Source: a virus. Taken from it: DNA of 64,000 bases. Made by a program: the position numbers and the translations under genes. Position 1 is the first letter of the stretch. Every line of letters starts with the position of its first letter. Shown piece after piece: positions 17,032 to 37,494 of the stretch. The notes beneath the pieces were generated by a model. The model worked only from the letters and a program-made list of their open reading frames with translations, was not told the origin of the DNA and searched no databases. The DNA lies in IMG/VR virus record IMGVR_UViG_3300025122_000008, positions 1 to 64,000 of that record; one strand, 5' to 3'.

Positions 17032-18575
17032 TGGCAATTAAAAGATATGTAGCCGCTGTGGACAACACGATAGCCAATGCTTTTGAGGCCAACCTGTCAA
17101 CTCGGGGCACCGGTTCAAATATGGGCGCTGCTGATAGCTTGGAGGTTTTTTCCTTGTACGGGCAGGTTTCTTCATCGACAGGCCCCAGTAACGAACTTTC
17201 TAGAATACTTATAAAATTTCCTATTGCAGGCACTCTAACCGCTAGCGCGCCAGATATACTTGCTGATCGAAATGCTAGTAAAATTCCTGCTAGTGGTAGT
17301 GTTAATTTTTATTTGAAGCTTTATAACGCGGAACATCCCTATACCCTTGGAAAGGATTACCAATTAAATATTTATCCCGTTTCTTCTTCTTGGGAAGAGG
17401 GATATGGTCTAGATATGGAGGAGTATAAAGATCTCACCTATGATAGTACCGGGTCTAATTGGGATCGCCGCGGGAACGCAGGCGCCTGGAATACAGGTAG
17501 CGGCGGCGGAGATTATAGATCTGATTATAATTTTACAGCTAGCTTCCTAAATGGTTGGGAAGATCTTGAAGTTGATGTAACGCCCGCGGTGGAAAGGTGG
17601 ATGCAAACGTCTGGGACCTCGCTACACTTTGACAATCACGGATTTTTAATTAAGCTCACCAACAATCAAGAGTCTGCTAGCTTTTCATATTACACAAAAA
17701 AGTTTTTCGCTCGTTCAACAGAGTTTTTCTATAAAAGACCAGTTATTGAAGCGCGTTGGGATTCTCGCACAAAAGATGATCGTGGAGATTTTTATTATAG
17801 TAGTTCGTTGGCGCCTGCCGCAGATAATTTGAATACAATATATATGTATAATTATGTAAGAGGTCGTTTAATAGATATTCCCAATTCTTCTAGTGTGGGC
17901 CTTACGGGATCTCTGCTGGTAAGTGTTTATTCGGGATCTACAGTCCCGACCGCCTCAAAATTACTTTTGCCGGCTGGCGGAGGAGTTGCTGCAGCATCGG
18001 ATTACAATATCACAGGCGGGTGGGTATCAACTGGAATTTATTCGGCATCCCTTGCTTTAACGGCAGCCGCCACTTCTTTAACAAAAATTTTTGATGTTTG
18101 GCATGATGGTACGGAAGAAACTAAAGGAAGCAATATTGAATATTATACAAGCTCATTTGCTCCTCAAAAACTAAGCGCCCATAATAATGCGCCCACTTTT
18201 GAGTATGTTTCTAATATAACAAATCTTAGATCTCAATATATGCGTACGGAAGACGCGCGCTTTCGATTTTTTATTAGAGAAAGAAACTGGAACCCAACCA
18301 TATATTCAGTTGCTACGGCGGCAATATCGAACACAACGCTAGTAAGCGCCTCATATAAGGTTTTAAGATTGACGGACGAGCTAGAAGTAATTCCATACGG
18401 CACCGGTAGTGATTATCAAACATATCTTTCTTATGATGTTTCCGGAAACTATTTTGATTTAGACATGAATCTTCTCGAAAAGGATTATGCATATGGTATT
18501 AAACTGGCATATTACAACAACTCGATTGGTTCTTGGGTAGAACAACCAGAGATGTTTAAATTTAGAGTAGAATAA
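17031..18575 (+). CDS. Virion structural protein, beta-rich (possible wedge/tail component)
   Basis: 514 aa. The sequence is rich in Ser/Thr/Gly and beta-prone: SRILIKFPIAGTL, YPVSSSWEEGYGLDMEEYKDLTY, GWEDLEVDVTPAVERWM and NHGFLIKLTNNQES. The arrangement, with a conserved 'W-EG-G' loop and 'D-T-V-W' strand, resembles carbohydrate-binding or DNRLRE-type jelly rolls, though this is a weak resemblance. I recall related proteins downstream of gp6 in aquatic T4-like phages. TAATG overlaps on both sides tie it to gp6 and the giant gene, so a baseplate-peripheral role is likely. Confidence 0.6.
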   Translation: MAIKRYVAAVDNTIANAFEANLSTRGTGSNMGAADSLEVFSLYGQVSSSTGPSNELSRILIKFPIAGTLTASAPDILADRNASKIPASGSVNFYLKLYNAEHPYTLGKDYQLNIYPVSSSWEEGYGLDMEEYKDLTYDSTGSNWDRRGNAGAWNTGSGGGDYRSDYNFTASFLNGWEDLEVDVTPAVERWMQTSGTSLHFDNHGFLIKLTNNQESASFSYYTKKFFARSTEFFYKRPVIEARWDSRTKDDRGDFYYSSSLAPAADNLNTIYMYNYVRGRLIDIPNSSSVGLTGSLLVSVYSGSTVPTASKLLLPAGGGVAAASDYNITGGWVSTGIYSASLALTAAATSLTKIFDVWHDGTEETKGSNIEYYTSSFAPQKLSAHNNAPTFEYVSNITNLRSQYMRTEDARFRFFIRERNWNPTIYSVATAAISNTTLVSASYKVLRLTDELEVIPYGTGSDYQTYLSYDVSGNYFDLDMNLLEKDYAYGIKLAYYNNSIGSWVEQPEMFKFRVE

Positions 18576-21500
18576 TGTCTTTACGCAAATACTTTCAAAA
18601 AGCGCAGGAGATAAAAAATCTTTCCAATCTAAGCGAAGAAGAGGTTGCTGGAGAAGTAGAGTCTGTTGGCTTTCACGAAGCTGATGTTGTAAAAGACAAC
18701 CGGTTTATACCGGCGGTAGATTACTCAGATCCAGCAAATTTTGCCAGGTATGGATCTGCAGTAGAGTATTACGATCGATCAATAAAATGGATTTATGGAG
18801 ACTATCCTTATGATGGTTCACTTAGAGAGAAACTAGAGTGGGAAAATAGTTCTTCGTACGTAGATCTATATATATTTGAAAATAAATATCCCAGATCTAA
18901 TGGATATGCACTGTTTTCTGCTGATGGTTGGGGCGCCCTCGCAAGTACTGCCCACCAGTACGGCACCCCCTCTAATTTAGAATACATTTATATAAAAGGA
19001 GGGCCCAACACCAACCCAGATGGGATGTCACCGTTCCGCCTTGCATTTACGGGATCAAACTATCATGAAACCGCCTCTAATCGTGCATCAAACCTAGAAT
19101 TTGATTTAGTGAATAAGGGGGCAAGTGTTGAGTTTTGGCTGAAGAAGACCGCTTTTGATGAAGATCTGACTGGTCGTGAGGTTATATTTGATCTGTGGAA
19201 CCTTAAAAACTCTGGTAGTGACGGATATGGAAGACTTAGAGTAGAGGTTACGGGTGGTGTAGGGTATAAAGGATCGCCCTTCCTCATCACTTGTCATTCC
19301 GGGTCTAGTACGACACCATATGGATTCGTAACCGAATCCGTTGGGCTAAGTTTGACGGGCGCCCTAGAAACCTGGAGCCATTATGCCGTTACTTTTAAAT
19401 CAGCTTCTGACGGCGTTGATGTTCGCCTCTATAAGGATGGCGCTCTAAACCATTCGGTTACCACGGGGAGCAATATTGGTATCGTCACAGGCGCCCTAAA
19501 CGCCACCATTGGTGCGTTAATTGTCCCCCCCAACAATATCAGTGAATCAGGTTCCGCAGGCGCTGGAAAACTGTCTGGTTCAATCGACGAGTTTAGATAT
19601 TGGAAAACACAAAGATCTTCTAAAGATATTGGTCGTTATTGGTTTACACAAGTAGGTGGCGGCACCAACAGCGATCCGACGCCTGGCCGCATTGTTACAT
19701 CCGCAAGCCTAGCCAATACCAGATTGGGTGTATATTATAAATTTAATGAAGGGATTACGGGTGATGCCACTACCGATGCTAAAGTTCTAGATTATTCTGG
19801 TCGTATTAGTAATGGTACTTGGACGGGGTATGATTCATATTCTAGGAATACTGGTTCAGCTATACTCTCAGCCAGCGCCGCAATTAGGGAATTTGAAGAT
19901 CCAATTATTTACGACGCTCACCCCGATGTAGTGTCCCTTAGTGCTGAACTAGCCGCGTCTGGCTCTCAGCATGATGCAACAAATAACGCCTCCCTTTTTA
20001 ATGCGATGCCCACGTGGGTTATAGAAGAGGATGAACTTGGGAGCAAAGATTTAAAATATTTAACCCAAATAATGGGCAGTTATTTTGATACCCTACACCT
20101 TCAAATAGAATCTCTCAACAGACTTAAGGATAAAACATATATAACCGGTAGTGATAAGCCTCTAACATTTGCAAATAGGCTCCTAGAACAGGCCGGCCTA
20201 ATATCCCCAGAAATGTTTTTGGATGTTGATATATTAGAAAAATTAGCTGATCGATCAGAAAAAAGGCTATATGAGAAAAACTTAACTGATATTAAAAATT
20301 CAATTTATCAAAACATATACAACAATCTATCGTATATATACAAATCAAAAGGCGCCGAAAAATCATTCCGGAACCTGATTCGTTGCTACGGAATAGATGA
20401 CGAGCTTATTAAATTTAATATGTATGCAAATAATATTGAATTTGAATTACGCAATAACGTTACGAGCCACGTTTTAGCAAAAAGATATGCAGACTTTAAT
20501 ACCACATCGAGTATAGAAGCAACAGTATACCAGTCAGGAAGTTATATAAGCGGTAGCCGCAATTTGTCTGATGGCTTTGCTTTTACGGCCGAAGCAAATG
20601 TTATATTCCCCGAGAAACTATCGCGGACCGATAAAAAGTTTATTGGTCTGCAGTTTATTTCTGCTTCTATATTTGGTTTACACAGTTCCTCACACGAGAC
20701 TCAAGACGCGATGGATCCGGAGTGGGCAGAACAAGATGCTGTAAACTTCCAAGTATATGCCGTACGTGATGAGCTGGGGTCTCCAAACGCAAAATTTGTG
20801 TTAACCGGTACAGCCGGCGGCTATGTTCCGCGACTTACTAGTAGTTTATACGAAGATGTTTATGATAATACAAATTGGAATTTGGCCGTAAGAATCAAGC
20901 CAGAAAAGTATCCTTATGCAAATCTGATTATGGAACCATCAACTGGTTCCGTTGGCCCGACTTATATTGTTGAATTCCATGGTATAAACATGCAAGATGG
21001 TACCATCATTAATGAATTTAATGCAACGGGAAGTATTACGGCTCCGCCAAAAATGTTTGTCACAGGATCCCGAAGACTATATGGGGGCGCCCATCGTACA
21101 AACTTTACTGGTTCGTTATTACAGTATTCCGATATCAAGCTGGGTTCTATACGCTATTGGTTTAATTATCTAGAGAACACCACGTTGGCTGCCCACGCGA
21201 AAGATATACAGAATCATGGTACTTTGCGTGCTGCTTCATATCCATATTTGTTTCAGCCCTCAGCTTCTTTTGGAGAGTTAAGCGAACAAGAGACATTGGC
21301 GCTTAATTGGGAATTTACTAATATTACTGGTTCTGATGCTAATGGGCAATTTACGGTATATGATATATCAACAGACTCTACAAGTCCATCAACAGGTTCA
21401 TATGGGTGGCTTGGACCCCTATTGTTGAGCGATCACGAAGGAAAGGGCTATGGATTTGCTTCGAATGATACGACTGCAATTGATAAAGATTATGTTACAG

Positions 21501-24500
21501 CGGTAAGACAGAATCTTCCGGAGAACCTTAAATCTCAGGATATGATAACCATCTATAATGAAATAGAGAGGGACTTGTTTACTAAGGAAACGCGCCCTGT
21601 TAATTTCTCTTTTGCTTTCGAAAAAAGCATTTACCAGAATATTTCTGAACAAATGTTGAATTATTTTTCAACTTTACACGAATTCCATAATTTAATTGGT
21701 GAGCCAGTAAACAGATATCGTATGAACTATAAGTTGATGGAAAAGGCTCGTACGGCCTTTTTCGAGAAGGTTCAAAACAATAAGATAGATTTTGAGAAGT
21801 TTTATGAGTTTTATAAGTGGTTTGATAGCTCTTTGTCCATAATGCTTAATCAACTGGCGCCAGCATCGGCCGACATTGTAGAAAATATTCGTACGATGAT
21901 TGAGAGTCACGCACTAGAAAGAAATAAATATCAATTTAAGTTCCCCACTTTAGAGGATAAATCTCCCGGCGCATGCAACAGTAAATGTGCCCTGGAGATT
22001 GGTACTGTATATATGGCCAGCGAGATGGCGCCCGGCGGCAAGCCCGGGAATGCTGGTAGTTTGGGTACCAAAGAATATACTCCAAGACAAGTTGGCACTT
22101 ACGACTGTAGAAAGCAAGGTGGCTGGAAGTGGCAATACGCACCAGTTGACGGGGATCAAAAGAAGAATAAAGATTGGTGGAAATATCGGGCCGAAAAATA
22201 TGGTGAGAAATATGGTGGTAAAACTAGCGTCAATTATTCTCGTCAAGGTATTTTTAAGAAAATGGCATGCGAGGTGGGCGACAGAATATCAAAGATATAC
22301 AGATTCTCAGTATCTGAGGAACCAACCTTCCCTTCGACCAATCTACATCCGAGTAAGCGTTGGGGTGCAATATATAATGTAGTTGCACCAGCGGGCCCAC
22401 TAATCGAGGGCCTGAATATTCCGGCTAACGTAGCGTTGATATCTGAAGTGGAAAAGTTAATAGATTCAAATGATAATCCGGTTCCACACCGCAAACAAAG
22501 ACTTGGGTTTTCTTTAAATGCCAGAATAAACAAACCCAGTGGTCACGATTATTTGAATGCTGATGGCAATATAATAGCTCCATTTAGTATATACAGTTCT
22601 TCTGTAACCACGGGCCAGAATGCTCAGGTGGTAAACAAATTCACCGGCAATGTTGAAATTACCAATCTGCACCACGACATGTATGGTACTTATACGGAAA
22701 CTCCTTTACAGGGTCCGTTTTCTGAAACGTGGGTGGGTGGCAGAGAGCATAGGCACGTACGCATTAATCGATATGATCCAGCAAAAAAAGGTGACAACAA
22801 TTTAGATTCCGCCTTGGATCGACCAGAAGGGTTTAAGTTATTGTTGGGCCCAGACTTGGGGCCCCAGGGCCTTGATGGGGCCTATATTGGCGGCATAGTG
22901 GGTCCACAATATCCCGAGCCGGAATCCCCGGAAGTGACGCCTCCTTATCTTTTTTATAGGCCCAAGGGCAATATGACGCGCGGCTTAATAACCAAACGAC
23001 CGGTTAATATTAAAAATATTTTAATGACTTCCGCATCCCTTAGTCAATCGCTTTCTGGCGTCCTGACACACGGGAGAGTTGGTAACTATCAACATAATTA
23101 TCAAGTCATTCAGTCTGTCGGCCGTAGCACCAATGATCCTTTTTGGCAAGACCAATCGTTTACTTTTGCTGCAAACCCGCAAAGTCCCTACCCCCGATTA
23201 TCTAATGTGGACCAGTTACCCGTACAAAACATTAGAGTCAAAAATACAAAAGCTGCCTCGATTAATGATAATTCTCCTTATAATTGTTATGTTTTTGCTT
23301 CTGATTCCGCGATGAATGCAAACAGCGCCGAAACATGGGCTTTTTGGCTGAATCTTACAAATCCGGACGAACTTAATTTTATTTTTGCGGACAATGCGGC
23401 CGGTGATCGTTATATATCTTTAACGGCAGCCAACACCCTGGCCTTTAAAGCTTATCACTCCACTACCGATGGAGTTTGGCAAACAGACGCTGCAATAACT
23501 ACCGGTAATGAGTGGGTTCATGTTGCCGTAACATATAACGGCAACTCTAACGCGAATGATGCAGTATTCTATATTAATGGTGAAAAAGTTGCATCCACCA
23601 ACAGTACATCCCCTGTTGGTACGCTGGAGGCTTATGGTGGCAACATAAACCTTGGTTATCCCAATGCAAATGGTTTTGAGGGGTATATGTCCGATGTGGC
23701 CTTTTACAATATCAATTTAACTGCATGCGAAATTAAGGCAATTTATAGTAATTCGACGTTAGACTTAATTAACCACGGGCCCCCGCGAGCTGCCTCCAAT
23801 CTTATATTCTGGTGGAGAATGGGCGACGGCGCCGGAGATGTCGCAGCCACCATTGTTGACCAGAAAGGAAATGCAAATTTGACTGCTGTTAATTCTCCAA
23901 CAATTATTGGTATTAGTCCTGATGATTGTTTGGTTACTGCAAATGATAACAATTTTGCTCTTCCAAATCGGCAAGGCGCGAATTCAAATAAGACTATATT
24001 TGTTAATCTGTTTAGTGCCCCGGGGTCATATGAGACATTATCGCGCGGATATCTTGATACTGCTCACGAGGAGAAGTCGGTTTATAATGCATTACCATTC
24101 CGTAACCTGTCTATTAGGGCATCTGGAAGTGGTGAATCGGGATCGCTACATGTTCAGTCTCATATTACCGGTACCGCTGGCCGTCGGGCTCTAAGAACGT
24201 TGCTCACCCTACACGCTGGCCCATTTGGGACCGATGCTCAATATGGTAGTGTATTATCTGCTATATATAATACGACCCCCTCTTTTCACAAGGTTAATAG
24301 AAATAGAAAATATCGATATGAGCTGAAACCCGTAGCCGCGTCCGCAGTAGATTGCATTGATACAACTGGTCTCCTAGCTGATCGATACAACGATGCTTCG
24401 TTTACAATATCGATCTCAGTGTCGGCCGGTGGTCTAGGTGGCACGGCTGTTACAATTTTACTTGATGCCAGCGAGTCCACCAGCGGCACTGGAGGCGCAA

Positions 24501-27500
24501 ATCAAATCATGATTGGCACCGATGATGGCATTACCGATGCAGCCCGGGCAGCTCTCATTATCAAAGCCATTAATGGAGATACCGATTCCAAAGTCAATTA
24601 TGCAACGTCAGGAAATGGCCAAGCCGGCGACGACCTGGGCATTACAGCGGCCGAAGGTTCAAGCGATACTCAAATTACGCTGACGATGGATGCTGCCGGC
24701 GCAGCGGGCAATATTGCTAGTGCGTTAGCCAGCGCATCAGGCGTCGACATAATTGACGTAACGTATTTTACCGGCGGTGGCAACGAGTCCGAAGGTGATG
24801 CCGCAGCTACTTTAACCGGCTCGGTTCGAGATAATTGGTGGGTACAGCATCCTATCCCGCGGGCAGCAAGAAATTATGCTTGGATAACTGCCAGCTTACC
24901 ACTTAGTAGTGATTATTACACATACATTGAACTGAGTGGCGGATTTCTGACAAGCACGCCAAGCATCAGTGGCGCCGATATTTTAACCACTGAATTGAAT
25001 AGTACCACTCCGGGGTATATTCGTGATTTTATTGGAACAAATACATTAATAAAAGAGCCAGTAAGCTGCTCACAAAACCAATTGGGGTATGCACCTTCAA
25101 TTGGTCTCGGCTCTCTTGCTACATTAAATCCGGCCGGTTCTACGGCAATTGATAAATTTAGTTCACTAGCCTCTAATTTTAATATGTTGATGCTTCATAG
25201 AAATGGTCCATATCAATACCCCTCATGGAAACAAATAAGAACAGGTGAGCACCCCGTCGTACGAGATCAAAAAGAAATAAATATTATGTCCGTAAGAGAC
25301 GAGCCGACCCAATTTACATACCTATCTTCATTAGGAAGTGTTTCGGTCGCCGGCCTGAAAGGAAATACTTTTACGTCTTATATAGAACAGCCTGTTAGTA
25401 GCCGACATCATCCTGTGGCGTTTTTCTATAAGACTGGGGATGTTGCTGCACTATCTAGAGTTACGTGGGCTAATAATTTAGACTACCTATCCAACGAAAG
25501 CCTTAATAATAAATTGGATATAGCGAAAGATGTTGAGCTTAGTCAGCCATATTATACAATAGTCAATACCGTATTAAACACGGTGCAGAACAACGAACAG
25601 GTAGTAGAATATTCTGAGAGGATTTATCCACGAGAAGTTAATGCATACCAGAATAGAGTGCGCGCGCGTACACAATATACTGTGGGAATGGGACTACAGA
25701 GTTCGGCTACTTCGGCCTCAATATGGAATTCATCAAGAAGTATAAGGTCTAACGTAAACACTATAAATTCTCAGGGGCATACAATAAACAATATGTCACG
25801 CTGGCCTTTAGATGGTCATATAGACTTTACCACCACTTACACCCTAGCTACGTCTTCTGACGCGGGCACCAATGGTCGCGAAGGAGAATTGTTAAATAAA
25901 TTCTGCAGATATGGGACTACTGGAAGTTTTTCAATTAGTGCTAGTGCACTTTATGCAATGCCGGTACCCGTTGGTTCGGCTTCGGTTAATGGTGACCCAA
26001 TTTATAACGGAGACGCCTTGTGGCAGTTGGGCACAGGCAGCAATGCCCCTTATCGTACATATGAAGATTATATGATATATCTCAGATTAACCGGGAAGGA
26101 CCACACCATTGTACCCGAATTTAGGATTAGTGACCACATAGAACGATATATCAATGCATCCGCCTCTAACTGGTTAACTGCGCTTGATAATAGTACACCA
26201 GGGATGTTTGAAATTACTGGTGCTTACATAGATAATAGTTTTGATGATGGTGTAAAAGTTTGCGAAGTTGTCGATACCGATAAGTTTTATAATGTTTATG
26301 GCCATACTGATTTCTTGAAATATTTTAAGGTAATAGACGACGATCTTAATAATAGAGAAACGGCAGACGGTACAAAGATTAGAAAATCATTATTATTAGA
26401 ATGCTCTGCAAAATTAAAATTTTTGCCATACAAGGGATTTTATCCGGTTGAAAGAACTGTTGAATTGGCGCGCCTTTTTTCTCAATCATATGGGCCTCAA
26501 ATTTCGGCAAGCAATCCACAGGCATATCGAGCAGTTTTAGAACCGTTATATGCCCCCGGAATTATGTATAATACGATCAAGTCAGGAATTGGTGTGGGAA
26601 GCTTTATAGTTTATAATGCAAGCTATGACCCAGACGACTCGGAAAGCGCAGTGTTTGATGTATCTAAAAAGAATGCGCTAAACTCCGCAGACACCACGCT
26701 TCCAGAGGGTACAATTAATTTTGGACAAAAATCAATATTAAGTATGAGTGCCTATCCCGAAAAAGAGGGCTCGACGGGCGGCTATAGTCTTCAGAGAATA
26801 CCTTTTGAGGCGATTCTTAAGCCCGAGGCTTATTTAAATACCGGCCTGCGTGGAAATGTTAGTGGTTCTGTTATTTTTGATAGTGGTATCGGTAGTGCTA
26901 GTTTATCTGGAAATACGGCGGGCGCCTCAGCGCTTAATCATATACGATTTTATGGCGCCGGATCCAAACTATATGGGATGGCGATCGATAATTTCTTATG
27001 CAATACTGCTGATTTCTTTTTGGAAAAAAGCCACCACAGCCCCAATGGGCTAACGACGTTGCTGGCCAGCAAAGAAGAAACTCAGTATACACCGCTAGTC
27101 GAGGATCAGGTATATGCTGTTACAATTAATTTGTATCGGACCCTGAAAAGCAAGAACGGCATTTCTAAAGCTGATTTTGATTCATTTAGTTTATATAATA
27201 ATGCTGGTGCTTTTGGGCCACCCTTCTGCTTGGATTGCGCAGATGCGGACGCTTCAACTGGAAACTTTAAGGCAAGTTTTGCTCCTGTTACACCATCATA
27301 TTTTTATGGAACAAGCTCGGTAACCATTATTTATAAAGCTCCTTTTACGGGGCAGCCCACATTTGATGATATAAGGTCTAGAGCTACGTTTGTTTACTCG
27401 CGTCAAATGGAAGAACAGACCACAAGCACAAGCGCGACTGGATATTGGTTTGCTCAACAAATTACCGGTAGTCTGAAGGTAATGGAGAAAGTAAATGCCA

Positions 27501-28744
27501 ATGGAGTTCGTTGGATGATTCAAAGTAAATTCGAAACCCCTGTTTTAAATTTTGCCGATAGTAATGCCGAAGCCCCGCTTACGTCTCCTAAGTTTTCGAT
27601 TACGGGTTCTAATCCGATTAGTACAAAGGGAATTTGGCATCAACTAGGAGAAGTACCAAAAGACTCTTCGAAGGGTATTTTTGTAAGCGTTACGACTCCG
27701 GAAACTGTAATAGATACTGATGGTACAACTTATAGAAGAGTTAAGCCGTTGGCGCCAGTGGTTGGTCTTGATGATTTTGAAGGGCGCCCCGTTCGTATTG
27801 GAGACGTGGCGACGAAGCGCACTCTAGAAGAAGCTGTGGTAGCTATACCATTTACTGTCAAAAAAGGCAGAAGAAAGTTCTTCAACATGCAGCAAGGTAA
27901 CCCACAGTACCCCCTTTCAACAGCACTGCTACAGAAGTATATTTTTCCTCCTACATTTGATTATGTATTGAACAATACAAAACCCATACTATTTTATGCC
28001 TTTGAGTTTACTATGGATATTGACCGGGAAGACATCAGTAAACTATGGCAAAATATTATGTTTGATAGCGGGGCCTCATCTACCGATTTTGATTTAGGAG
28101 AGTGTGCCACCATCAACAACCAACTATCCTCTTGCGTCTTAGAAGATCAAGATCTTATCAAACAAATATATGGATGCATTGATGACCTGAAGTGGCTTGT
28201 TTTTAAGGTTAAAAAGCGCGGCGTGCGCGATTATAATAGATATATAAAGGGAAATATTCCTGGGATCCCCACGAATCAAATATCTAAAATCGCACCCAAC
28301 GTGACAGAAAAATATACCTATAACTGGCCATATGATTATTTTTCATTAGTTGAGCTAGTCAAAATGGATGCCACGGTTAGATATTCTGCAACAGATGCCG
28401 AGAGGATCATACAGCCGGCATTTACTCCTGCGCAAACTCCCACTGCCGAACTATATACACCAGGGAGAATCATGGAACAGGCGAAGGGAGAAGTGCTGGC
28501 CGATATCGATACTAAAGATTTGGGAGGCTTGCGACTACCCGATCTGATAGCTACTACTAACGTTACTACAGTGGACATAGGTAAAGATTATTCTGTAGCA
28601 GATGCTACCCCGGGCCAGATTTCGATTCCCGGTGATCCCTTCCAGTCGGATCGTGGGATGTCCGATGCCGCGGCCGCCGCCAAGGCCAAAGCCGCGGCTG
28701 CCGCTAAGTACCTCCAAGGCAAGAGCGACAAGGGAAATAAATAA
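18575..28744 (+). CDS. Giant virion structural protein (3389 aa) with two LamG-like domains
   Basis: 3389 aa, the largest gene here. Residues ~178-355 form a concanavalin/LamG-like jelly roll (KGASVEFWLKK ... SHYAVTFKS ... VRLYKDG ... SIDEFRYWKTQRS). A second LamG-like domain is at ~1582-1760 (ETWAFWLNLTN ... WVHVAVTYNG ... FYINGEKVA ... SDVAFYNINL). Such folds bind glycans or other ligands. Residues ~1930-2080 are a Gly/Ala/Thr-rich, GC-richer module that looks inserted. The tail ends in an Ala/Lys-rich helix (SDAAAAAKAKAAAAAKY). Position after gp6 suggests a peripheral baseplate or tail-fibre-network protein, perhaps functionally like the large wedge subunit gp7; that parallel is inference. 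Confidence 0.7.
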   Translation: MSLRKYFQKAQEIKNLSNLSEEEVAGEVESVGFHEADVVKDNRFIPAVDYSDPANFARYGSAVEYYDRSIKWIYGDYPYDGSLREKLEWENSSSYVDLYIFENKYPRSNGYALFSADGWGALASTAHQYGTPSNLEYIYIKGGPNTNPDGMSPFRLAFTGSNYHETASNRASNLEFDLVNKGASVEFWLKKTAFDEDLTGREVIFDLWNLKNSGSDGYGRLRVEVTGGVGYKGSPFLITCHSGSSTTPYGFVTESVGLSLTGALETWSHYAVTFKSASDGVDVRLYKDGALNHSVTTGSNIGIVTGALNATIGALIVPPNNISESGSAGAGKLSGSIDEFRYWKTQRSSKDIGRYWFTQVGGGTNSDPTPGRIVTSASLANTRLGVYYKFNEGITGDATTDAKVLDYSGRISNGTWTGYDSYSRNTGSAILSASAAIREFEDPIIYDAHPDVVSLSAELAASGSQHDATNNASLFNAMPTWVIEEDELGSKDLKYLTQIMGSYFDTLHLQIESLNRLKDKTYITGSDKPLTFANRLLEQAGLISPEMFLDVDILEKLADRSEKRLYEKNLTDIKNSIYQNIYNNLSYIYKSKGAEKSFRNLIRCYGIDDELIKFNMYANNIEFELRNNVTSHVLAKRYADFNTTSSIEATVYQSGSYISGSRNLSDGFAFTAEANVIFPEKLSRTDKKFIGLQFISASIFGLHSSSHETQDAMDPEWAEQDAVNFQVYAVRDELGSPNAKFVLTGTAGGYVPRLTSSLYEDVYDNTNWNLAVRIKPEKYPYANLIMEPSTGSVGPTYIVEFHGINMQDGTIINEFNATGSITAPPKMFVTGSRRLYGGAHRTNFTGSLLQYSDIKLGSIRYWFNYLENTTLAAHAKDIQNHGTLRAASYPYLFQPSASFGELSEQETLALNWEFTNITGSDANGQFTVYDISTDSTSPSTGSYGWLGPLLLSDHEGKGYGFASNDTTAIDKDYVTAVRQNLPENLKSQDMITIYNEIERDLFTKETRPVNFSFAFEKSIYQNISEQMLNYFSTLHEFHNLIGEPVNRYRMNYKLMEKARTAFFEKVQNNKIDFEKFYEFYKWFDSSLSIMLNQLAPASADIVENIRTMIESHALERNKYQFKFPTLEDKSPGACNSKCALEIGTVYMASEMAPGGKPGNAGSLGTKEYTPRQVGTYDCRKQGGWKWQYAPVDGDQKKNKDWWKYRAEKYGEKYGGKTSVNYSRQGIFKKMACEVGDRISKIYRFSVSEEPTFPSTNLHPSKRWGAIYNVVAPAGPLIEGLNIPANVALISEVEKLIDSNDNPVPHRKQRLGFSLNARINKPSGHDYLNADGNIIAPFSIYSSSVTTGQNAQVVNKFTGNVEITNLHHDMYGTYTETPLQGPFSETWVGGREHRHVRINRYDPAKKGDNNLDSALDRPEGFKLLLGPDLGPQGLDGAYIGGIVGPQYPEPESPEVTPPYLFYRPKGNMTRGLITKRPVNIKNILMTSASLSQSLSGVLTHGRVGNYQHNYQVIQSVGRSTNDPFWQDQSFTFAANPQSPYPRLSNVDQLPVQNIRVKNTKAASINDNSPYNCYVFASDSAMNANSAETWAFWLNLTNPDELNFIFADNAAGDRYISLTAANTLAFKAYHSTTDGVWQTDAAITTGNEWVHVAVTYNGNSNANDAVFYINGEKVASTNSTSPVGTLEAYGGNINLGYPNANGFEGYMSDVAFYNINLTACEIKAIYSNSTLDLINHGPPRAASNLIFWWRMGDGAGDVAATIVDQKGNANLTAVNSPTIIGISPDDCLVTANDNNFALPNRQGANSNKTIFVNLFSAPGSYETLSRGYLDTAHEEKSVYNALPFRNLSIRASGSGESGSLHVQSHITGTAGRRALRTLLTLHAGPFGTDAQYGSVLSAIYNTTPSFHKVNRNRKYRYELKPVAASAVDCIDTTGLLADRYNDASFTISISVSAGGLGGTAVTILLDASESTSGTGGANQIMIGTDDGITDAARAALIIKAINGDTDSKVNYATSGNGQAGDDLGITAAEGSSDTQITLTMDAAGAAGNIASALASASGVDIIDVTYFTGGGNESEGDAAATLTGSVRDNWWVQHPIPRAARNYAWITASLPLSSDYYTYIELSGGFLTSTPSISGADILTTELNSTTPGYIRDFIGTNTLIKEPVSCSQNQLGYAPSIGLGSLATLNPAGSTAIDKFSSLASNFNMLMLHRNGPYQYPSWKQIRTGEHPVVRDQKEINIMSVRDEPTQFTYLSSLGSVSVAGLKGNTFTSYIEQPVSSRHHPVAFFYKTGDVAALSRVTWANNLDYLSNESLNNKLDIAKDVELSQPYYTIVNTVLNTVQNNEQVVEYSERIYPREVNAYQNRVRARTQYTVGMGLQSSATSASIWNSSRSIRSNVNTINSQGHTINNMSRWPLDGHIDFTTTYTLATSSDAGTNGREGELLNKFCRYGTTGSFSISASALYAMPVPVGSASVNGDPIYNGDALWQLGTGSNAPYRTYEDYMIYLRLTGKDHTIVPEFRISDHIERYINASASNWLTALDNSTPGMFEITGAYIDNSFDDGVKVCEVVDTDKFYNVYGHTDFLKYFKVIDDDLNNRETADGTKIRKSLLLECSAKLKFLPYKGFYPVERTVELARLFSQSYGPQISASNPQAYRAVLEPLYAPGIMYNTIKSGIGVGSFIVYNASYDPDDSESAVFDVSKKNALNSADTTLPEGTINFGQKSILSMSAYPEKEGSTGGYSLQRIPFEAILKPEAYLNTGLRGNVSGSVIFDSGIGSASLSGNTAGASALNHIRFYGAGSKLYGMAIDNFLCNTADFFLEKSHHSPNGLTTLLASKEETQYTPLVEDQVYAVTINLYRTLKSKNGISKADFDSFSLYNNAGAFGPPFCLDCADADASTGNFKASFAPVTPSYFYGTSSVTIIYKAPFTGQPTFDDIRSRATFVYSRQMEEQTTSTSATGYWFAQQITGSLKVMEKVNANGVRWMIQSKFETPVLNFADSNAEAPLTSPKFSITGSNPISTKGIWHQLGEVPKDSSKGIFVSVTTPETVIDTDGTTYRRVKPLAPVVGLDDFEGRPVRIGDVATKRTLEEAVVAIPFTVKKGRRKFFNMQQGNPQYPLSTALLQKYIFPPTFDYVLNNTKPILFYAFEFTMDIDREDISKLWQNIMFDSGASSTDFDLGECATINNQLSSCVLEDQDLIKQIYGCIDDLKWLVFKVKKRGVRDYNRYIKGNIPGIPTNQISKIAPNVTEKYTYNWPYDYFSLVELVKMDATVRYSATDAERIIQPAFTPAQTPTAELYTPGRIMEQAKGEVLADIDTKDLGGLRLPDLIATTNVTTVDIGKDYSVADATPGQISIPGDPFQSDRGMSDAAAAAKAKAAAAAKYLQGKSDKGNK

Positions 28745-32929: not shown

Positions 32930-35900
32930 ATGACTCCTCTCTCGACCGGACCCATATGCTTTGTAATGCCCTATATTGACAGAAGAGCAGTGGGACGAGC
33001 ACCATCAGGTGATTGGTGGGCCCACGGACAGGGTCACCCGGCTCTGAGGACTGCAGACGGCTGGCTAGCGCTTGATAGATTTCGTGCTGCCATGGGTTTT
33101 CATTTTTGGGAAGGCGACCTCTACGGCGAGGATTGGTCATGGAGACATGGCCTGGCTTCACCAGTCTTAGCCGGGGATGGCTATAGCCTCGCGAACGGCC
33201 GATTATTAAGCCCCGTGGGCGACGGGCTGGAGGCCCCGTCGTCGTCGCCCGTTGGCTCCCTCCGACGGGAGTATCCTATCGCCTTTATTTACAGGACCTT
33301 CATCTTGGCCGACCCGGCTGGGCAGCCGACGATCCAGCCATCTTCGATATGGGCAGGACAACGGGACCAAGGTACCATGTTTCATGGATACCCATCTGAC
33401 TTCCCCGAGGGTCTACTAGACGAATTAAATGGCCTAGGCCACCCTTATTTCGAAAATTGGGTCTACAATAAAGTCCACTTGCCCACCAGTGAACGAGGAA
33501 TCCCCTCTGATGATGCCCTCGTTGGTCAATATTTAGATGATAATATTCCGGGCCTCCTTTCGCCGGTGTGGGGATCCTATGGCTATAAAGCAGATTACAC
33601 TACTTTTTGTCCTTCACCAACCCCGGTTGGCCCCACGCCCGACGCAGCCGCCGGCCCGGACGACACCACACTCTTTGATATTAGTGTGCGCGGGGTCTAT
33701 AATTCATATAGTCGTGCTCTAGAGGAGACGTTTACATCCCTTAATTTGGGCGAGCATTGTCTTCCAAATTATTATATGATGTTTTATGTTCCTTCGCAAG
33801 ATAGCACTAATACTGTAGAGATGCCGACGATATATCAGAGACAAATAGATCTCGCCCAAGCCGCCAATTGGGGTCACGGGCCCGCTGACGAAGGCGGCGC
33901 CGACCCGAACGGGGTACCCAGTCTCGATCAGCCGGCTTCTTTCTACCAAGAATTAAATGCTGCATATGCTGCACTAAGAGATAACGGCGAAAGCCGCGGC
34001 ACCACCATCAGCGAAGTTACCGCTGCTATGGAAAAATATAAAGTTATTGTGGTAAGACCCCGGGCCCATTCAGAAATAACGTCCCCGGGTAGCGATATAA
34101 ACAATCAATTTAAGATAGACACTTTACCATATTATATAGATATCCAATATAACGATAATGGTGCGGATGTTGCCCCGCTGACTCACCCCCCGAGTTTGTT
34201 TAATCCTAGTGGAGATTTTATATACGAAAGGGTTAGTAGTTTTTTTAGGAGATGGGGAATGTATGACATTCTGATGGATTTGATAGTTGAGGGCGATACC
34301 GGCGCTCGTTCTACTCCCGTAAATCCGTCCAGCAGCGAGATCCTTCCCGATAACTCCGTCGAATTCGGTATATTTGCTGACTCCGGCGACACAACATACG
34401 TAAATCTTACATGGATTATCCGCCAACTCGGCCGTTCTAATCTCTGGAATGACGGCGACCCGGCTACCGAGCCAGCTGGAGGCCTACCGGGCGCTAGCTC
34501 CTCATGGCCGAAGATGGACCTCCCAACGGGATACACAGACGCGTTCCTTAGTATTCAGCCGGGAGCGGATCCTGATGCAGACGCTACGGGAGTTTATTTG
34601 GACAAGCCATCATTTTGGACTGGCCGGAGCCCATTCCCCGGCCCGACTCCGCCGGCGACCGGCGTTTATAATGACGCCATCTCCGCTACTTTGGGTGAGA
34701 CCACGAACCTTGCCGCGGCAACTCCGGGCATCATTGCGTTCTCTCAATTCGCCCAATTTGACTCCATGAAAGACGACCTAAGGACCCTTATTGTAAATTT
34801 GCAACGTACCCCCGCGGAGTTGTTCGAAGGTGTGGGTTGTTATTCTGAAACAGTTGCTTATAAAATAGAGAAGTATAGGGTCCACCCCTCCACAGGAAAT
34901 CGTACGAACGTTCAGACATTTTATATCCCCTGTATGCCGAATCCTGCAGATGATAGTTGTAGCTTCAGGTATATTGATACACAAGTAATTTATGGGTTTG
35001 AATATGTATATGACATACACCCAATAAAGATTGTTGTTGGGACAGTGTATGGTTACGCTGACGTAAATGTTTCTACGACAGCCACTAAGGGTAATGGGCG
35101 CGCCCTAGGAAACGCATTGGGATTTTATGAAGACCTCGCGGGCCCGGGCGGCATGCCCGGGCCACACAACGCGAACCGTTGGTCGACGTGGATGGATGAT
35201 TATTTACGTGATAATGAAGACACCTCCGACGCTTCCATGCACCGGGGCTCTTTTGTATTAGCACATCCATCCCTGGACGGCATACTCTGTGGTTTGGGTG
35301 AGAATGAAATCCCCTTCACCGAGTCCTACAAGTCCGGAATCAGACTGAACGAGCAGGACGTACAGCCCTTTATCAAAGAACGAGTTTCGCTACAACTCCG
35401 GCCCGGCGACGGTGTCGACAAGAACGAGGACGGCGGTGCGATTGCCGAGGCCCTAGGCGCCTGGAAGCCCGCGGTGCCGTACGTGATGACCGAGGCCGAG
35501 GAGACCTGGTGTATCTTCAACGACGCTATGGACGTGGATGAAGAGTGCTTCGTTGCCGGTACGAAGGTAGCCGCTATTATCGATGGACAAATTCAACTTG
35601 TTAATATTGAAGATCTTCAATCTGGAGATTTGGTGATGTCTTATAATCTTGTTAGCAGGAGCACAGAAGCAAAATCGATTGTACGAACCAGTTCCCCGAT
35701 TCACAGTGATATTGTCGAGTTTGGATTCTCAAACGGAACCACAACCCAACACACTTATGATCATCCATATTATGTAGAAAATAAGGGCTGGTCTTCATAT
35801 ACACCGGAAAAGACTATCGAAACATATAAAAATCCTGAACTTGAGAATACTTCAAGAATTGAGATTGGAGATCGGTGTAGACTGATTAGTGGAGAACTTG

Positions 35901-36130
35901 TAACGTTAGTGGCCATAACAGAAGTGTTTAGCGGCCCAACACAAACCTACAATATTGTGGTTGAGGACAATCACAATTACTTTGCCGATGAAATTTTAGT
36001 GCACAACAAGACGGTGGAAGGCACCCCAGGCCCAGGACCGGGCGATCCGGACGATCCTCCAATGGGCGGTGAACAGGGGCCCGAGGACGACGACACCGAC
36101 CCCGATGACCAGCGGATGCTTGAGGACTAA
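32930..36130 (+). CDS. Virion structural protein ending in a Hint (intein/BIL-like) domain
   Basis: 1066 aa. Residues 1-~650 are Gly/Pro/Asp-rich, beta-type and unassigned. Residues ~640-730 are FnIII-like (SETVAYKIEKYRV ... IDTQVIYGFEYVYDIHPIKIVVGTVYGY). Residues 873-1026 form a complete Hint domain: block A CFVAGTKV with C873, block B T942-x-x-H945, block F TYNIVVEDNHNYFA and block G VHN (H1025, N1026). The residue after N1026 is Lys, not Cys/Ser/Thr, as in A-type bacterial intein-like domains, so cleavage rather than splicing is expected. A 40-residue Pro/Gly/Asp tail follows. DNA of the Hint segment is clearly more AT-rich than its flanks. The next gene seems to continue the same structural protein. 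Confidence 0.75.
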   Translation: MTPLSTGPICFVMPYIDRRAVGRAPSGDWWAHGQGHPALRTADGWLALDRFRAAMGFHFWEGDLYGEDWSWRHGLASPVLAGDGYSLANGRLLSPVGDGLEAPSSSPVGSLRREYPIAFIYRTFILADPAGQPTIQPSSIWAGQRDQGTMFHGYPSDFPEGLLDELNGLGHPYFENWVYNKVHLPTSERGIPSDDALVGQYLDDNIPGLLSPVWGSYGYKADYTTFCPSPTPVGPTPDAAAGPDDTTLFDISVRGVYNSYSRALEETFTSLNLGEHCLPNYYMMFYVPSQDSTNTVEMPTIYQRQIDLAQAANWGHGPADEGGADPNGVPSLDQPASFYQELNAAYAALRDNGESRGTTISEVTAAMEKYKVIVVRPRAHSEITSPGSDINNQFKIDTLPYYIDIQYNDNGADVAPLTHPPSLFNPSGDFIYERVSSFFRRWGMYDILMDLIVEGDTGARSTPVNPSSSEILPDNSVEFGIFADSGDTTYVNLTWIIRQLGRSNLWNDGDPATEPAGGLPGASSSWPKMDLPTGYTDAFLSIQPGADPDADATGVYLDKPSFWTGRSPFPGPTPPATGVYNDAISATLGETTNLAAATPGIIAFSQFAQFDSMKDDLRTLIVNLQRTPAELFEGVGCYSETVAYKIEKYRVHPSTGNRTNVQTFYIPCMPNPADDSCSFRYIDTQVIYGFEYVYDIHPIKIVVGTVYGYADVNVSTTATKGNGRALGNALGFYEDLAGPGGMPGPHNANRWSTWMDDYLRDNEDTSDASMHRGSFVLAHPSLDGILCGLGENEIPFTESYKSGIRLNEQDVQPFIKERVSLQLRPGDGVDKNEDGGAIAEALGAWKPAVPYVMTEAEETWCIFNDAMDVDEECFVAGTKVAAIIDGQIQLVNIEDLQSGDLVMSYNLVSRSTEAKSIVRTSSPIHSDIVEFGFSNGTTTQHTYDHPYYVENKGWSSYTPEKTIETYKNPELENTSRIEIGDRCRLISGELVTLVAITEVFSGPTQTYNIVVEDNHNYFADEILVHNKTVEGTPGPGPGDPDDPPMGGEQGPEDDDTDPDDQRMLED
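35546..36007 (+). other. Hint domain coding segment (BIL-A/intein-like, 154 aa)
   Basis: The segment runs from TGC (C873) to AAC (N1026) of the 1066-aa gene. It is 154 codons, a length typical of BIL domains and mini-inteins, and there is no homing endonuclease insert. Visible catalytic residues are C1, the T-x-x-H of block B, and the terminal His-Asn. Local composition is AT-rich, while the bases just before (35400-35540) and after (36010-36120) are very GC-rich, so the domain edges coincide with a compositional step. Confidence 0.82.
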
Positions 36131-36171: not shown

Positions 36172-37494
36172 ATGGATCCACACCATGCCTACCGCGAGCC
36201 CGGAAATTTAGGGTGGTGGCTCGACATTACAGAGACGGGGCTAAATGGTGCAGTCGCGAATCGATTTTCTGTACCATTGCCGTTTGACAAGGGCCAAATC
36301 ACCCTGTGGAACTTCGAGGACGAGATGAATTATGTTCTGCAGAATTTTCTTCCTGATCTTGAAGTAACCGAGCGCTCGTATAGTTACTCCCTGGTGCCGA
36401 AAAGGCTCCATGCCGGCACATCCGCTCAAGACACGCGCATGTTAATTCTACATTATATCAGGTGCACCGCGGCCGACCCCGAGGACCCCGAGGACGACGA
36501 CACATACAAGAAATTTAGTGTTAAATTTATTAATGGTCCTCATGGTCTAAACGGGGTCAACGAGATGGAATGGGATCCTAGCTTGATCCCCGATGTTGGC
36601 GCGCCGCTAGTAGATATCCCAGACGAGTACTATGTTACCTCAAAAATGAAAATGTATGCTCGAACTAACGTTGGTGCGTTTTCACCATTTTACAGTACAT
36701 CTGTCATGGTACAGGATAAACCACCGATGTCTCCTGACGCTGAATTTGTTCCCTATAGAAATATTAACAATAGGATGCTTATTATATTGAGCGGCCAAAC
36801 CGGAGTCAAAGAAGAGGTGCCAGTTCTTATTTTGGATGCCGATAATCAAAAATTTAATAATGTGTATATATCACAAGGCAAAAGTGCAAATGATTTTACC
36901 CAGACAATGGAATTTTCAAGCGATGACCCTGTCTATACGTATCAATTGTTTAGAACGACGGTGCCACCAACCACATACTCAGATTTTAGTGAAAACTTGT
37001 TGTCTGAATATACAGAATTTGCCGGCGACGAAACACCAGCTACATTGGCAACCTATGTGGATCATATTCTGCCGAATACAAAATATTATTATTGCTTTAG
37101 ATCTGTGGATATACATGGTAATATATCTAATCCAACTGCAATATATCAGGTGGAGATGATTGATAACAATGGGCAGATATATCCAGATATTCGTTTGTAT
37201 GGTGGTTGCGCAGATATTAATCAAAAAGATTTAGCAAAACCTGGAAGACGATTTATTTATATTGCACCCTCGACGAGTCAAACTAACCTGGAAGGAGATA
37301 CCGACATCAACCTGCCGTTGGGCAACTCGCTGCCACTAAACCCATTGGTGGCACCTAGTAATAATATTCTTGGTACTCCCGGAGAAGACCCGGTATGGGA
37401 TAAAATCTTCAAGATTAGATTGACTAGTAAAAAAACGGGTCGAAAGACGGATCTTAATTTGATCTTTAAAAATACAGGGGTAATAGATCCTTAG
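36172..37494 (+). CDS. FnIII-type virion structural protein, probable C-terminal half of a split protein
   Basis: 440 aa. After a GC-rich N-terminal ~110 residues (DPEDPEDDDTYKKF) come conserved structural segments: KPPMSPDAEFVPYRNINNRMLI, DPVYTYQLFRTT, LPNTKYYYCFRSVDIHGNISNPTAIYQVEM (an FnIII strand pattern, ~305-335) and KIFKIRLTSKKTGRKTDLNLIFKN at the C-terminus. In relatives I recall these segments following the 'IDTQV-Y-YVYDI' segment in one polypeptide; here that segment is in the preceding gene. An AGGAG ribosome-binding site and the TATAAATA box precede it. Role: tail/baseplate structural protein. Confidence 0.65.
   Translation: MDPHHAYREPGNLGWWLDITETGLNGAVANRFSVPLPFDKGQITLWNFEDEMNYVLQNFLPDLEVTERSYSYSLVPKRLHAGTSAQDTRMLILHYIRCTAADPEDPEDDDTYKKFSVKFINGPHGLNGVNEMEWDPSLIPDVGAPLVDIPDEYYVTSKMKMYARTNVGAFSPFYSTSVMVQDKPPMSPDAEFVPYRNINNRMLIILSGQTGVKEEVPVLILDADNQKFNNVYISQGKSANDFTQTMEFSSDDPVYTYQLFRTTVPPTTYSDFSENLLSEYTEFAGDETPATLATYVDHILPNTKYYYCFRSVDIHGNISNPTAIYQVEMIDNNGQIYPDIRLYGGCADINQKDLAKPGRRFIYIAPSTSQTNLEGDTDINLPLGNSLPLNPLVAPSNNILGTPGEDPVWDKIFKIRLTSKKTGRKTDLNLIFKNTGVIDP

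Follow-up and report, generated by a model that had tools for sequence, protein, structure and literature searches.

Hedgehog proteins end in a Hint domain (Hog) that lacks a terminal Asn and has a sterol region. Type A BIL domains with the signature described below mostly cleave and sometimes splice (PMC4031507), and Tetrahymena BIL2 reportedly links to other proteins via Lys isopeptide bonds (PMC8616854). In the open-access phage papers found, the genes reported to carry inteins are those for TerL, ribonucleotide reductase and helicase; in the open-access literature searched, no study of phage particle or tail proteins with Hint, BIL or intein-like domains was found. Here, a Hint domain is described from a 64-kb window, the whole stretch of DNA analysed, which belongs to a 98,425-base IMG/VR virus record. 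The BIL domain type is known, and its use on phage particle proteins is likely to be new.

Anatomy and fold of the Hint in ORF A

Translation of nucleotides 32930-36127 gave a protein of 1066 residues with the following features.

ORF A: 32930..36130, + strand; 1066 aa, an 872-residue baseplate-region protein followed by a Hint and a 40-aa tail (ORF list, translation)
GDGVDKNEDGGA motif: 35405..35440, + strand; residues 826-837, the final conserved element of A ahead of its variable C-terminal tail
Hint domain (BIL type A): 35546..36007, + strand; residues 873-1026, 154 residues
C873, N-terminal nucleophile: 35546..35548, + strand; invariant among 72 Hints
T942-Y-D-H945, block B (TxxH): 35753..35764, + strand; Thr in 71/72 and His in 72/72 Hints
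H1025-N1026, block G: 36002..36007, + strand; His in 71/72 and Asn in 63/72 Hints
K1027, +1 position: 36008..36010, + strand; Lys or Arg in 60/72 aligned Hints; the sole Lys of the tail
40-aa tail: 36008..36127, + strand; acidic and Gly/Pro-rich, with a C-terminal LED common to the window and locus L004

The first-pass annotation had named C873, T942, H945, H1025, N1026 and K1027, and translation of ORF A revealed these positions to be exact. Its statement that a homing endonuclease is missing was borne out, since a domain of 154 residues is too short for one. Third-position GC content forms a mosaic along the gene, with 0.52 in A, 0.30-0.34 in the Hint and 0.70-0.88 in the tail, and is alike in the window (32930-36127) and in L004 (6575-11062).

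Pfam, PDB and Foldseek matches indicate that the Hint did not arise from a chance similarity. Pfam PT-HINT (PF07591) matched ORF A at 1.6e-6 and 28.8 bits, above the curated cut-off of 27.7, and Pfam AXH matched at 3.8e-11. A phmmer search of the PDB found the BIL domain 2lwy at 5e-8. The AlphaFold2 model of the Hint had a pLDDT of about 97 (91-98) over most of the domain, and Foldseek aligned it with Tetrahymena BIL2 (6y75) at 5.3e-13 and a TM of 0.87, and with 2lwy at a TM of 0.90 and an rmsd of 1.4, so that the top PDB matches are solved BIL domains. Pfam, phmmer, the AlphaFold2 model and Foldseek thus concur on a Hint domain nearest to BIL domains, which confirms the observation.

The type of Hint was judged from its ends and its position. 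The fold begins with Cys, carries TxxH in block B, ends in His-Asn (H1025-N1026) and is followed by K1027 in place of a Cys, Ser or Thr at +1, which is the anatomy of a type A BIL; the earlier BIL-type reading was upheld in every sequence and structure test run. A canonical class 1 intein has a +1 nucleophile and is inserted at a conserved site of its host protein, whereas this Hint precedes Lys and lies in a variable tail past the final conserved motif. The pretoxin HINT model scores over its cut-off, but no toxin domain follows, and a Pfam search found no domain in the 40-aa acidic tail; release of a toxin by the Hint was rejected on this ground. A Hedgehog-type domain does not fit either, as N1026 is kept and the tail is acidic.

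Profile A2 of the Hints also revealed the eukaryotic AXH domain (ataxin-1, HBP1) to be a Hint relative, with matches to AXH structures of ataxin-1 (4.9e-13) and to HBP1 (5e-8). Pfam AXH matched the tandem Hint array of L073 at 3.4e-35; in the window, the match covers 35549-35878 (residues 874-983), beginning past the Cys1 position and stopping short of blocks F/G. No paper naming both AXH and Hint was found in the open-access literature.

The baseplate module and its relatives

The gene for ORF A has a gp25/gp6-like baseplate wedge pair on one side and replication genes (RuvC-like, primase) on the other; genes for terminase, portal and head protease lie farther along. A 3389-aa protein with LamG-like domains (18575-28744) is also encoded within the baseplate module. 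A particle role of the A protein is likely from this gene order, and its presence in the particle is putative, as no cultivated phage with an A protein is known. The previous label 'virion structural protein' is drawn from the gene neighbourhood; the 872-residue part itself was named by none of the family models searched, and its predicted structure had a mean pLDDT of 45 and no PDB match. A similar gene block occurs in Flavobacterium phage immuto and Microcystis phage Mel-JY01, where orthology is established for gene 37541 only, because the large genes gave no match to the module profile. No full-length relatives were found in phage records or, with peptide patterns, in IMG/VR.

Downstream of A lies a second reading frame.

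ORF B: 36172..37494, + strand; 440 aa, with AGGAG upstream and no frame linking it to A

Residues 172-435 of B are the counterpart of the second half of a single A-B protein in relatives. The module survey comprised 104 loci, with five contigs doubled (L050/L214, L051/L226, L055/L237, L060/L230 and L061/L260); among its roughly 90 contigs, A and B form one ORF in about 78 and two ORFs in 12. A Hint was found in the window and in L004 only, both with split A/B. The closest relative, L203 (ortholog of gene 38496, 69% identical), likewise has A and B as two genes yet no Hint, and so do nine other contigs; the Hint was therefore rejected as the cause of the split. Fusion of A, Hint and B by frameshift or read-through was likewise rejected, the frames not being linked. 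The GDGVDKNEDGGA motif of A is common to L203, L205, L217, L220, L234, L249 and L273; the A protein of L203 carries GDGVxNNxDGGA and diverges past this motif, as do the other tails of the split class. A search of 17 whole records with alignment A1 revealed no Hints in the nine that belong to Hint-less relatives of the module.

By sequence comparison, the Hint is an accessory of the module, placed in the variable C-terminal tail of A. The same survey weakens the earlier suggestion that phage tail maturation includes a self-processing step: most module relatives are without a Hint, which argues for an accessory rather than a conserved maturation step.

Selection, related Hints and the predicted reaction

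C1 and the block-B His were present in all 72 of the Hints aligned, a diverse set from phages, bacteria and archaea; the Thr and the penultimate His were each present in 71. The most conserved positions are thus the catalytic ones (C873, H945, T942, H1025); selection of the homologues as whole-domain matches may partly inflate this conservation, while the search pattern itself contained neither C1 nor TxxH. The two tandem Hints of L004, the sole close relative, form one clade with the window Hint (support 100). Their dN values against the window Hint were 0.22 (Hint1) and 0.33 (Hint2), compared with 0.40-0.85 for the other genes and parts compared, and dS was saturated or nearly so in every case. 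No other segment compared has a dN as low as that of the Hint, which implies that the domain is maintained, and we conclude that it is under purifying selection. An inert or purely structural Hint, i.e. a decayed mini-intein or toxin-type relic, would agree with the many module relatives that manage without one; given that all catalytic residues are retained and dN is lowest (dS being saturated), we consider this the least probable reading.

The domain therefore combines a complete fold, all catalytic residues, no +1 nucleophile, purifying selection and patchy presence. On its sequence and model, we give a probability of about 0.55 to residues 873-1026 being an active type A BIL on the variable tail of a baseplate-region protein, with a thioester at C873, cleavage after N1026 and release of residues 1-872. 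In the folded Hint, C873 would attack the 872-873 peptide bond in an N-S acyl shift assisted by T942 and H945, and cyclisation of N1026 would free the tail from K1027 onwards. Residues 1-872 would be released mainly via hydrolysis of the thioester and partly via attack of an amine, either the alpha-amine of K1027 once freed or that of a nearby Lys, so that residue 872 would be the last of the mature A protein or be followed by the acidic tail only. The LED end of the tail in both phages counts against this, as a tail that is only cleaved off and lost would have no need of it. By analogy, release of the N-terminal part of A, or its transfer to another nucleophile, is plausible; release, splicing of the 40-aa tail and isopeptide transfer are all compatible with the sequence.

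One IMG/VR scan and one scan of GTDB genomes with alignment A1, together with earlier loci, yielded 91 non-redundant Hints. Cys is first in 88, the other three having starts that the profile truncated or misaligned, and 75 end in HN, with K (55), R (10; K/R 65) or C/S (7) at +1. One group consists of ordinary inteins with a +1 nucleophile. Other phage Hints form tandem arrays of 2-4 with linkers of one to few residues, several with HNK-stop (L072-L118, e.g. L073:3676-6450), behind an N-terminal part of ~470 aa; ATP-grasp identity of this part, assigned by eye, was rejected for want of Pfam, PHROGs or PDB support. An Asn-less HSE class keeps C1/TxxH and has lost the final Asn, in short phage proteins resembling tail proteins (L007:400-1530, L122, L128-L149). 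Single Hints occur in other large proteins (L006, L119, L130, L143). The Hint at L006:6037-6480 is a near-clean insertion in a linker, with a Hint-less homologue in Tenacibaculum phage PTm1 (ORF-011); proteins similar to the L006 host protein match in the Chryseobacterium MA9V-1 and Sphingomonas PAU phages. Flavobacteriia (L151-L160) have proteins with a C-terminal Hint that closes with VHNK or VHNR; the 1-14 residues beyond it leave no room for a toxin domain.

The L006 insertion speaks for splicing by the window Hint as a nucleophile-free mini-intein. In such splicing, a route of which type A BILs are capable (PMC4031507), the K1027 alpha-amine, freed by N1026 cyclisation, would attack the C873 thioester and join residues 1-872 to the acidic tail. 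The Gly/Pro/Asp-rich stretches with a common LED end behind the Hints of both phages would suit this, as would the Hint being an AT-richer island (GC3 0.30-0.34) amid GC-rich flanks (0.52 before, 0.70-0.88 after). Cleavage predominates in type A BILs, however, the LED tail is absent from Hint-less relatives, and in the many related Hints that stop at HNK-stop splicing would add a single residue; we hold splicing to be unlikely.

The Asn-less sister class recalls Hedgehog, and the nearest structure is BIL2, with its reported Lys isopeptide bonds (PMC8616854). Both point to conjugation, where the C873 thioester would pass residues 1-872 to Lys or a different nucleophile of a putative partner, a second molecule of the particle or one on the host surface. 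The 872-residue protein would then be attached covalently via its C-terminus to an amine of another particle component or of the host surface, and the tandem and Asn-less Hints of phages would be other forms of the same strategy. Against this, N1026 is retained, which sets the window Hint apart from the Asn-less type, and Arg at +1 in ten relatives implies that the +1 Lys side chain is no general acceptor. We rate conjugation as less likely than splicing.

Comparison with known systems

If the predicted type A BIL is active, phages would trim or join a particle-associated protein by intein-type chemistry, without protease or ATP. The tandem arrays and Asn-less C-terminal Hints suggest that this strategy would be commoner among environmental phages than is apparent from the literature searched; the related Hint sets also provide natural BIL variants for protein ligation.

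The Clostridium thermocellum BIL (2lwy) shares the fold (TM 0.90, rmsd 1.4), C1, the H-N end, the lack of a +1 nucleophile and of an endonuclease, and variable flanks; the window Hint, predicted from sequence, differs in its carrier, a baseplate-region protein of a phage. In the Tetrahymena BUBL1 ubiquitin-like locus, BIL2 (6y75, 6tmm), the top Foldseek and profile match, sits between ubiquitin-like domains, whereas none was recognised in the window protein. Pretoxin HINT (PF07591) is matched above its cut-off, but the acidic tail behind the window Hint holds no recognised domain. The C-terminal Hints of Flavobacteriia (L151-L160) are ~40% identical, with the VHNK/VHNR end and few residues beyond, and belong to RHS-type bacterial proteins (called by eye from a repeat motif in L152 and L154), unlike phage particle proteins. 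The BFVD entries named 'Hint domain containing protein' from uncultured Caudovirales are unstudied Hint-bearing phage proteins; collagen or Fn3 domains gave some of them their names, and their host protein differs from A.
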